Origin: Pirellulales bacterium
GTDB taxonomy: Bacteria > Planctomycetota > Planctomycetia > Pirellulales > Lacipirellulaceae
Direction of reading: 5' to 3'
Assembly (NCBI GenBank): GCA_028279215.1
Contig: JANQOF010000036.1
Coordinates: forward strand, 1 to 64,000
Length of the DNA: 64,000 nt
How positions within the stretch are numbered: position 1 is the stretch's first letter; every line of letters begins with the position of its first letter. The translations under genes and the position numbers were made by a program. This document shows positions 51,508 to 55,000 of this stretch, piece after piece. The notes under the pieces were generated by a model. That model was not told the origin of the DNA, did no database searches, and worked only from the letters and a program-made list of their open reading frames with translations.

Positions 51508-52974
51508 TTACATCTTGGCGATCAAGTCCAGACACAATTGCCGGACGCGGCCCGGATCGGCGTTGGGATTTCGCTTCTTTGCCTGGCCTATCAAAGCCCC
51601 GACGGCCTGCTGTTTGCCCCCTCTTACGTCGTCGACGATCTTCGGGTTCGCGTCGAGCAGTTGCTGGCAAAGAGTCTCCAACTCCGAGTCGTCGACTTCC
51701 TCAATCCCCAGCTGGTGCATCGCTTCGTCGACCGACAACTTCTTATCGAGCATCACGTCGAACACGTCGCGCCCGCGCGAGCTTGGCAAGTCGCCTGACT
51801 TAAGTTTCGAGACGAACTTGCCGAGGGAGGATGCCGCAATGGGAAACGACTCAATCGGCTCCTCTCGTTCCTTGAGCACCCGCAGCACATCTTGCGAGAC
51901 CCAATTGCATACGGCCTTGCCGTCGCCGGCGACGTCGACTGCCGCGAGATAATAGGCAAGCAAGTCGCGGCCTTGATTCACGAGCACTTCGGCGTCGTAC
52001 GCCGAAAGGCCGTGCTCCGACTGGAGCTTGCCGCGCAGATCGGCCGGTTTTTCTCCAAGCGATGCGGTGGCCGCGGCCACCTCCTCCTTGGTGAACACGA
52101 CCGGCACCAAATCGGGGTCGGGGAAGTAGCGATAGTCGCTCGACTCTTCTTTACTTCGCTGGCCCCGTGTGACGCCCGCCGCGTCGTCCCACCCGCGCGT
52201 CTGCTTAGGCGAGTCGCCAAGCTTTGCGCCGGTTTCTTGCCACACGTCGTATTGGCGGCCCGCTTCGTACTCGATGGCCCGCTCGACGGCGCGAAAGCTG
52301 TTCATGTTCTTGATTTCAACGATCGGCGTGGCGATCATCTCGCCGCCCGAATCGAGGTGCAGGTTGACGTTCGCGTCGACTCGCAAGCTGCCTTCCTGCA
52401 TGTTGCAGTCGGAGACACCGATGTAGGTAAGCAAGAGCTTTAGCTCGTCGAGATAGGCCCGCGCTTCCAGCCCGGACCGCATGTCGGGTTCGCTAACGAT
52501 CTCCAATAGTGGCGTGCCAGTGCGATTTAAGTCGATCACGCTGTCGGCGCGTCCTGCTACTTCGTCGTGAATGCTCTTGCCTGCGTCCTCCTCGAGGTGG
52601 GCACGAAGGATTCGAATCTTCTTGGACTCGAACCGGTCTTTCGAGTCGGAGATTTCCAAGTGGCCGTGTTCGGACATCGGCATGTCGTACTGCGAAATCT
52701 GATAGCCCTTAGGAAGGTCCGGGTAGTAGTACTGCTTGCGGTCCCACTTGGTTAGCGGAGGAATCGTGCAATTCAGTGCGACTGCGGTCTTTAGTGCAAG
52801 ATCCAACGCCTCGCGATTCATCACCGGTAGCGACCCCGGCATGCCAATGCACACAGGACAAGTTTGCGTATTCGGCTCGGCCCCAAATTGCGTGCTACAC
52901 CTGCAGAACAACTTGCTCTTGGTGGCAAGCTGCACGTGAACTTCTAGGCCGACGATGGTGGTGTAATCTGGCAC
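51508..52974 (-). CDS. gatB: Asp-tRNA(Asn)/Glu-tRNA(Gln) amidotransferase subunit B
   Basis: TIVGLEVHVQLATKSKLFCRC, LPVMNREALDLALK, KQYYYPDLPKGYQISQYD; GTG start. Confidence 0.97.
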   Translation of the reverse strand: MPDYTTIVGLEVHVQLATKSKLFCRCSTQFGAEPNTQTCPVCIGMPGSLPVMNREALDLALKTAVALNCTIPPLTKWDRKQYYYPDLPKGYQISQYDMPMSEHGHLEISDSKDRFESKKIRILRAHLEEDAGKSIHDEVAGRADSVIDLNRTGTPLLEIVSEPDMRSGLEARAYLDELKLLLTYIGVSDCNMQEGSLRVDANVNLHLDSGGEMIATPIVEIKNMNSFRAVERAIEYEAGRQYDVWQETGAKLGDSPKQTRGWDDAAGVTRGQRSKEESSDYRYFPDPDLVPVVFTKEEVAAATASLGEKPADLRGKLQSEHGLSAYDAEVLVNQGRDLLAYYLAAVDVAGDGKAVCNWVSQDVLRVLKEREEPIESFPIAASSLGKFVSKLKSGDLPSSRGRDVFDVMLDKKLSVDEAMHQLGIEEVDDSELETLCQQLLDANPKIVDDVRGGKQQAVGALIGQAKKRNPNADPGRVRQLCLDLIAKM

Positions 52975-52987
52975 GGTTTGGATTTTT

Positions 52988-53464
52988 TTGCCCGCGAATC
53001 ACGCGAATAAGCGCGAATGTTAGATTCTTGATTCTTGGGTGAGAGCAATGCGTTCGTACTCAAGTTTGGGGTGATGCCCGAAATCTACTAGGATGCCTAA
53101 CTTGAAGCTGGTCGCATGTAGGTAGTTGAGCAGTTGGGCCCGATTCTCGTCGGTGAGGCGCTTCGCTGCCTTTAGCTCTACGACAATCTTGCTGTAGCAG
53201 ACATAATCGGCTTCGTAATAAGCTTGGAGTGTCTGTCCGTTGTAGTCCAAGCTCAAGCGAGGCTTCGACACCGACGGAATGTTGCGATTCTCGAACTCAA
53301 TTCCCAAGCACTCGTGATAAACTGCTTCGAGAAAGCCACAGCCCATCGTGTTGTATACCTCGAAACACGCACCGATGATCGCGTAGCTTTCGTCCGGATA
53401 GATGATGTTAGGCACGTTAGTTTTCTCAGCGTGATTCGCGAACATTCGCGCAATTCGCGGGCAA
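52988..53464. mobile_element. 477-bp inverted-repeat-bounded GxxExxY cassette
   Basis: TTGCCCGCGAAT at 52988-52999 is the exact inverse of ATTCGCGGGCAA at 53453-53464; further matching words GCGCGAATGT/ACATTCGCGC and CGCGAATCACGC/GCGTGATTCGCG occur in both ends. Confidence 0.6.
53020..53445 (-). CDS. GxxExxY protein (PD-(D/E)XK-like)
   Basis: GCGFLEAVYHECL, VVELKAAKRL, GILVDFGHHPKLEYERI; ATG at 53445 inside the terminal repeat. Confidence 0.88.
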   Translation of the reverse strand: MFANHAEKTNVPNIIYPDESYAIIGACFEVYNTMGCGFLEAVYHECLGIEFENRNIPSVSKPRLSLDYNGQTLQAYYEADYVCYSKIVVELKAAKRLTDENRAQLLNYLHATSFKLGILVDFGHHPKLEYERIALTQESRI

Positions 53465-55000
53465 TCAAAGTGTCGGTCTCTTTGTATGCCAATCAGTTGC
53501 CGTCTGGTACATGTGCCCAGCACGGAGCAGGGTTTCTTCGGCTAGAGGTTTGGCTTGCAAGTGAAGGCCAATGGGTAGACCCGAGTTGCTTTGGCCGCAG
53601 GGGACGCTCATGGCAGGCACACCGGTCAGGTTGGCGCTTACGGTGTACATGTCGACGAGGTACATCGCCAGCGGATCGTCGACAAGCGAGCCGAGTTCAA
53701 ACGCGGGGGTCGGCGCCACAGGGCCAGCCAGCACGTCGACTTGCTCGAATACCCTGTCGTAATCTTGTCGTATCATCCGGCGAACTTTGAGAGCCTTGAG
53801 GTAATAGGCGTCGTAATAGCCGGCGCTCAAGGCGTAAGTGCCCAGCATGATTCGGCGTTTGACCTCAGCTCCGAAGCCTTCGCTACGGCTCTTGCGGTAC
53901 ATCCGCACGAGGGGCGTATCGAGGTTTTCCGCCTCGCGTCGTTTGCCGGCTTCTTCCAGTTCGGCCCGTTCGGCATTCAACTCTTCGGTCAACTTCGCAA
54001 CGTCGGCACGATAGCCGTAGTGAACGCCGTCGTACCTGGCCAGGTTGCTAGAGGCTTCGCTTGGTGCGATCACGTAATACGTGGCCACCCCGTACTTGCT
54101 ATGCGGCAGCGATACTTCGACGAGCCTCGCCCCCAACGATTCGTAGGTGCCGAGCGCGTCGCGCACCGCCCGCTCGACCTCGCTATCGAGACCCTCGGCA
54201 AAGTGCTCCTTGGCGTATCCGATCCGCAAGCCATCGAGGGGCTTGCGGACGGATTCGGTGAATTGCGTTGTATGATCGAGCGACGTGGAGTCGTGCGGGT
54301 CGTGGCCAGAGATCGCCTCGTGCAGTAGCGCAATATCTTCTACCGTATGGGCCAAGGGGCCGATCTGATCCAGGCTGCTGGCGAAGGCCACTAGGCCAAA
54401 ACGGCTTACGCGTCCGTAGGTCGGCTTCATTCCAACGACGCCGCAGAAGCTAGCGGGCTGGCGGATCGAGCCGCCGGTGTCGGTGCCAATCGAAAGCGGG
54501 GCGAAGTCGGCCGCCACGGCAGCGGCAGCGCCGCCACTTGAGCCACCCGGCGACCGCTTTAGGTCCCACGGGTTGGCGGTGACTTTGAATGCGGAGTTCT
54601 CGGTCGAGCCGCCCATGGCGAACTCATCCATGTTCGTGCACCCGATCAGCACCGCGTCGGCGGCCTTGAGTTTGGCGATGACGGTCGCATCGTACGGCGC
54701 GGAGAACTCCGCGAGCATCTTTGAGGCGCAGGTGGTGCGCTCGCCCTTTTGTGCGAGGATGTCCTTGACTGCCACCGGAATGCCGGCGAGCTTTCCGAGC
54801 GGCTGGCCGGACGCACGACGCTGGTCGACGCATTTGGCCGCGTCCAAAGCTCGGTCGGCGGTCACTCGTAGGAAAGCGCCCACGTTGCCTTCCTGGGCCG
54901 AAATGCGATCGAGATAGGCCTGAGTCAGTTCTACCGCGGAGATCTCGCCCGAATCGAGCAACCTGCATTGGTCGACGGCAGAGAGCGAAGTGAGCAACAT
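53465..55000 (-). CDS. gatA: Asp-tRNA(Asn)/Glu-tRNA(Gln) amidotransferase subunit A
   Basis: Amidase signature [51 protein letters not shown]. Confidence 0.97.

Follow-up and report, generated by a model that had tools for sequence, protein, structure and literature searches.

Among described systems that join an enzyme to dispersed repeats, RAYT/REPIN is the closest to the element analyzed here. It combines a domesticated, single-copy and vertically inherited enzyme with repeats that form paired gene-less populations (PMC8049555), the enzyme being an HUH tyrosine transposase and the repeat a GTAG-tagged palindromic REP (PMC8266576). Heptamer repeats of the sequence TAACTGA have also been described in Beggiatoaceae and cyanobacteria, where they are arranged as direct repeats upstream of start codons (PMC4679880).

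The present locus lies in a 64,000-nt stretch of a Pirellulales genome (contig JANQOF010000036.1, positions 1 to 64,000), referred to as the window, and consists of a GxxExxY gene framed by two inverted arms of tandem 7-nt words. Like RAYT (TnpA-REP)/REPIN, the GxxExxY gene is single-copy, vertically inherited, flanked by its repeat and rare on plasmids, and the dispersed gene-less copies of its word consist of two inverted repeats and are more numerous where a cognate gene is known (pooled p=3e-4, with genomes G002 and G014 as exceptions). Unlike RAYT/REPIN, the enzyme is PD-(D/E)XK-like, with profile matches only to PDDEXK_3/GxxExxY and none to HUH, the arms are built of three tandem, element-specific 7-nt units of the form C-R-C-N-R-M-K, with GTAG absent from the window arms, and many different GxxExxY words coexist in a genome. 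Judged by these sequence features, the GxxExxY system would be RAYT/REPIN-like in its working and is not a member of that group. With the TAACTGA heptamers it shares short intergenic tandem words of patchy, lineage-specific occurrence, and it differs from them, as described, in its linked putative nuclease gene and its paired inverted arms (PMC4679880).

In our judgement, the best explanation of the cassette, and a fairly probable one, is that it represents the master copy for a family of word-specific repeats, working in a RAYT/REPIN-like manner with an unrelated nuclease. Recognition of the word appears well supported by the sequences compared below, and mobilization is what we infer from them.

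The gatA-gatB cassette and its predicted protein

The cassette occupies the gap between gatA and gatB (Table 1). An inverted-repeat GxxExxY cassette had been placed there by the earlier note, with its right arm beginning at the base after the gatA TGA, its left arm ending 13 bp before the gatB GTG, and both the start and stop codons within the repeats. These positions were all confirmed, the right arm containing the start codon and the left arm having the stop codon at its inner edge. The same note had described the arms as sharing shuffled words; the words are indeed shared, but they are not shuffled, each arm carrying three regular CGCGAAT copies with a start-to-start spacing of 9-10 nt.

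Table 1. Positions of the cassette, its coding features and the neighboring genes in the window.
Feature	Position	Strand	Remarks
Left inverted arm	52988..53018	+	TTGCCCGCGAATCACGCGAATAAGCGCGAAT (52988-53018); three CGCGAAT units at 52993-52999, 53002-53008 and 53012-53018
Right inverted arm	53434..53464	-	TTGCCCGCGAATTGCGCGAATGTTCGCGAAT (minus strand, 53464-53434); three CGCGAAT units at 53453-53459, 53444-53450 and 53434-53440 (minus strand)
GxxExxY / PDDEXK_3 gene	53020..53445	-	141 aa; ATG 53445-53443, TAA 53022-53020
PF13366 domain of the cassette gene	53047-53394	-	Profile match
Codons S20 and Y21 (domain residues 3 and 4)	53383..53388	-	Covary with word base 5
Codon C36 (domain residue 19)	53338..53340	-	Covaries with word base 7
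gatA, upstream neighbor	53465..55000	-	TGA 53465-53467 abuts the right arm
gatB, downstream neighbor	51508..52974	-	GTG (52972-52974) 13 bp from the left arm

The two arms are inverted copies of each other, which paired over 36 nt with 81% complementarity in a repeat search of the window and formed the top-scoring inverted repeat within 700 bp in the whole window. Of the 43 other ORFs of 100 aa or longer in the window, none had flanks pairing as well as these. Tandem CGCGAAT, with at most one mismatch, occurred 17 times in the same genome, compared with 0 for the reversed control.

Compared with other GxxExxY proteins (TIGR04256/PF13366), the cassette protein is full-length, with E values of 4e-37 and 1e-36 for PF13366 and TIGR04256, above the curated cut-off, and has all conserved motifs present, namely E40, D80, E90-x-K92 and Q104xxxY108; in alignments of 12 and of 41 members, the D, the E-x-K and the helix Glu showed little or no variation. 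We take the motif order E...D...E-x-K...QxxxY of GxxExxY to be that of Cas4/RecB-type PD-(D/E)XK nucleases, from which GxxExxY differs in being a stand-alone 110-residue domain. An alignment-based AF2 model of the cassette protein reached a pLDDT of 88.5 (single-sequence AF2 gave 41) and displayed a PD-(D/E)XK-like alpha/beta secondary structure. By its motifs and this confident model, the protein is predicted to fit the PD-(D/E)XK fold. In the model, helix 1 has residue 3 at one end and residue 19 at the other, and an oligomer or neighboring units may therefore be involved. No PDB chain related by sequence to the protein was matched, an Rfam search gave no match, and PADLOC returned a single weak match (13 bits). 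A link of GxxExxY to repeats or to a recognition code was absent from the open-access literature, while a prior description in a subscription journal is possible.

Words of the arms and their relation to the protein

Arm scores above threshold were obtained in 88% of 186 Planctomycetota GxxExxY loci, compared with 5% in a swapped control that joined the upstream arm of one locus to the downstream arm of another. Arms were likewise found in 82% of 76 loci from many phyla and an archaeon (27% in the control, raised by the predominance in this set of similar words such as CACAGAG) and in 80% of 55 further new loci (3% in the control). Gene and repeats form one unit, as the earlier note had read them, and the repeats consistently accompany GxxExxY genes on both sides, which that note had raised as a question. 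Counted by a revised unit-finding rule, the earlier one having misplaced units in CACCACAGAG-type arms, 176 of 234 elements had three units in each arm, compared with 5 of 234 in a shuffled control, and the start-to-start unit spacing among elements was 8-10 nt. The words fit C-R-C-N-R-M-K with a loose base 4, and each element has its own word, which is used in both arms: units agreed about as well within an arm as between the two arms of an element, and in both cases far better than between elements. Eight GxxExxY genes with such arms were found in the genome of the cassette, each with another word, these being, besides CGCGAAT, CACGAAG, CGCAGAG, CGCAGAT, CACGGAT, CACAGAG, CGCAAAG and CGCGGAT. 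From the sequence of the window alone, it could not be seen that the word varies by element and tracks the protein, or that most of its copies are without the gene.

With regard to the neighboring genes, the median distance from the arm start to the stop codon of the gene facing the arm was 5 nt. Among 242 sites, the upstream gene pointed toward the element in 80%, and both neighbors were co-directional with GxxExxY in 58%.

In the discovery set, Thr at domain residue 3 was accompanied by G at word base 5 (95:1), and Ala, Gly, Val or Cys by A (32:2), so that a rule from residue 3 to base 5 was correct in 127 of 130 cases. Ser3 was split for base 5, and residue 4 resolved 47 of the 51 Ser3 cases. 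Pro19 went with G at base 7 and other residues mostly with T or A, and the association between residue 19 and base 7 was also found in hold-out loci (p=5e-6). The residue-3 rule had been recorded before these hold-out loci were obtained from the genomes behind the named loci. It predicted base 5 correctly in 22 of 23 of them, compared with 16 of 23 when the word of the nearest protein was used, and where the rule and the nearest relative's word disagreed, the rule was correct in six of seven cases.

Among distance-matched protein pairs, column 3 differed in 37 of the 45 with a switch at base 5 and in 10 of the 43 without one (p=2e-8), which put it far ahead of every other column tested. Columns 4 and 3 ranked first and second of 116 in a branch-by-branch test (p=0.0007 and 0.007), values that are modest because only 22 changes were available. 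The rule persisted when only the far arm, or an arm at least 20 nt from the domain, was used, which indicates that overlap between codons and arm is not its cause. Prediction of bases 2 and 4 from the protein was at chance with whole clusters held out. On the protein tree, bases 2, 4, 5 and 7 changed fewer times than in all 200 label shuffles, such as 12 changes for base 7 compared with a shuffle mean of 31.

The cassette protein itself agrees with the rule, its S3, Y4 and C19 going with A at base 5 and T at base 7, and its nearest relatives, which are 57-61% identical to it and come from other genera and other sites, have mostly CRCGAAW words. From this residue-base covariation, it is very probable that the cassette protein physically recognizes its own word.

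The sole breaker of the residue-3 rule in the same genome, L004 (G000:C58:1371-1709), has A3 with CACGGAT. Its GxxExxY gene contains an in-frame TAG and is possibly dead, in which case a break of the rule might be expected.

Gene-less copies and same-site elements

Exact tandem word pairs numbered 51 in the genome of the cassette, compared with 6 in the reversed control, and the sites examined there include gene-less hairpins of about 75-160 bp; other hairpins that were read directly measured 66-309 bp. In related genomes, tandem pairs of CGCCAAG reached 125 in G002, 100 in G015 and 75 in G008, those of CGCGAAT 43 in G007 and 30 in G010, and those of CACGACG 36 in G007, with reversed controls of 0-7. 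In G007, the two-nt spacers among CGCGAAT units are mostly CA or TA, and the gatA-gatB element of that genome likewise has CA between the units of its arms, a match that suggests recent copying. The link between word copy number and a known cognate gene was obtained from pooled ranks, with cognates assigned among the loci examined. As exceptions, G014 has gene-less copies without any GxxExxY gene, and no cognate for CGCCAAG was found in G002, a 2.8-Mb draft, its single GxxExxY gene having another word. Many of the 125 pairs in G002 are inverted pairs about 200 bp apart.

Close duplicates of a gene-bearing element within a genome were found in none of 15 genomes with 3-9 GxxExxY genes each, the most similar pair in any of them being 63% identical; the near-identical gene-bearing copies that are a hallmark of insertion sequences and autonomous transposons are thus not seen. 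Together with the amplified hairpins, this indicates that the gene-less copies multiply and the genes do not. GxxExxY was found in 8 of 72,556 plasmid records and in three viral contigs.

Both flanking genes were common to 106 locus pairs, and same-site elements were common to different genera. Among same-site orthologues, synonymous sites were saturated or nearly so, and dN/dS was 0.05-0.08 where measurable, which indicates strong purifying selection on the GxxExxY protein. Word switches between same-site elements involved all or nearly all six units, as with CGCGGAG and CACAGAG (L276/L289), CACAGAT and CGCAGAT (L278/L303), CACGAAG and CACGACG (L001/L270), and CGCAAAG and CGCAGAG (L272/L284). 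Such concerted switches need unit conversion or a protein with altered word preference.

The gatA-gatB junction was empty (15-39 bp) in several relatives, among them G003 (39 bp) and G002 (31 bp), two of the three further species in the genus. The flanks of the relatives compared have diverged beyond a base-by-base match with the empty site. GxxExxY elements were present at the junction in G007, G010, G022 and G023, with related words in the first three, and remnants in G015 and G005. A single origin of the gatA-gatB elements was not rejected (p-AU 0.28), and some empty junctions may therefore be losses. Of the two observations that the earlier note had named as speaking against its reading, one is countered by the empty junctions in relatives, but the other is seen, the repeats occurring genome-wide mostly without the gene.

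Three further arrangements were observed. In relatives (L038, L049, L051, L053 and L028), gene-less tandem repeats in inverted arrangement recur at the gatA-gatB junction, a hot spot for them, and their words are of quite another kind, such as GACAAGGA, GTAGACG, GGGCGAG and TGACCAA. A 566-bp element of the cassette's genome, L353 (G000:C29:9399-9940), has CACGGAT-type arms around an unrelated 116-aa ORF, possibly another cargo, for which no Pfam match was found. Another in the same genome, L352 (G000:C14:141660-141830), is nested and gene-less, its CACGGAT-type arms lying within a pair of CACAGAG-type arms, as though one element had inserted into the other.

Proposed mechanism and alternative explanations

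In the mechanism that we propose, the GxxExxY protein, a PD-(D/E)XK nuclease by motifs and model, would recognize the 7-nt word of its own element (here CGCGAAT), of which each of the two inverted arms would present three units, spaced by roughly one turn of the helix. Word base 5 would correspond to domain residues 3-4 (S20/Y21) and word base 7 to residue 19 (C36), and protein and word would evolve jointly, so that all six units shift in concert. The protein may further act at a low rate on gene-less hairpins that share its word, which it would copy or maintain, often directly downstream of a stop codon, while the gene itself would stay single and vertically inherited. A nuclease acting on its own repeats, as the earlier note had surmised, now appears to be the best-supported idea; this action on the arms, together with a slow copying or upkeep in trans of the hairpins that have no gene, we regard as moderately probable.

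The arms could instead be operators for the gene's own expression, with nothing cut or moved and the gene-less copies being decayed or other regulated sites. Autoregulation of this kind would account for the same residue-base covariation, the start codon within an arm and the long retention at one site, but it leaves unexplained why there are two inverted arms, the far one behind the gene, as well as the conserved nuclease residues and the bursts of gene-less hairpins, and we consider it unlikely. Quite unlikely is a hairpin at the RNA level, with RNA as the substrate of the protein and with arms that pair in the transcript to serve processing or attenuation in operons. The position of the arms just past stop codons and, in 58% of sites, between co-directional genes would suit it, as would the ability of the hairpins to form on either strand; yet G-U-compatible mismatches showed no coding-strand excess (191 vs 160), pairing does not require three-fold homogeneity of the units, and Rfam gave no match. 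Very unlikely, too, is a mere linkage, in which slippage or gene conversion homogenizes the arms and shared descent, without recognition, produces the correlation of protein and word: the words do carry phylogenetic signal and the strict branch test is modest, but the recorded rule outperformed the nearest relative in the hold-out loci, including their disagreements, and column 3 was singled out by the distance-matched pairs. The earlier note's version, a minimal self-mobile cassette simply inserted into the gat operon of this lineage, fits the empty junctions in the same genus but is very improbable given the related elements and remnants at the same junction, the same-site elements across genera with saturated synonymous sites and purifying selection, the lack of close gene duplicates within the genomes compared and the rarity on plasmids and viral contigs.

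Under the word-recognition mechanism, GxxExxY proteins would be sequence-specific nucleases with a partly readable residue-to-base code and would form an unrecognized enzyme-plus-repeat class in Bacteria and Archaea, with many orthogonal words per genome and with the unrelated PF05635 having independently reached the same layout with exact heptamers, a generalization for and against which we see an even balance. For this widespread family, it offers a testable function, the reading by the protein of the word that flanks its gene, and the residue-to-base rule, having held in hold-out loci, makes recognition testable by one amino-acid change. If true, it would account for many intergenic hairpins of variable word, a large class found in planctomycetes and in numerous other phyla, and a life style of the RAYT/REPIN kind would have arisen more than once, with unrelated enzymes.

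Genes of PF05635 (four-helix-bundle, 23S rRNA IVP / S23; L056-L060 and L323-L349) displayed the same layout with a different arm. Inverted arms were found at 90% of 29 such loci, compared with 1.4% in the swapped control, and consist of exact 7-nt tandem units (lag-7 identity 0.77), the heptamer of which differs by element, such as GGCTGTC, TTAGGTG and GGGATCA.
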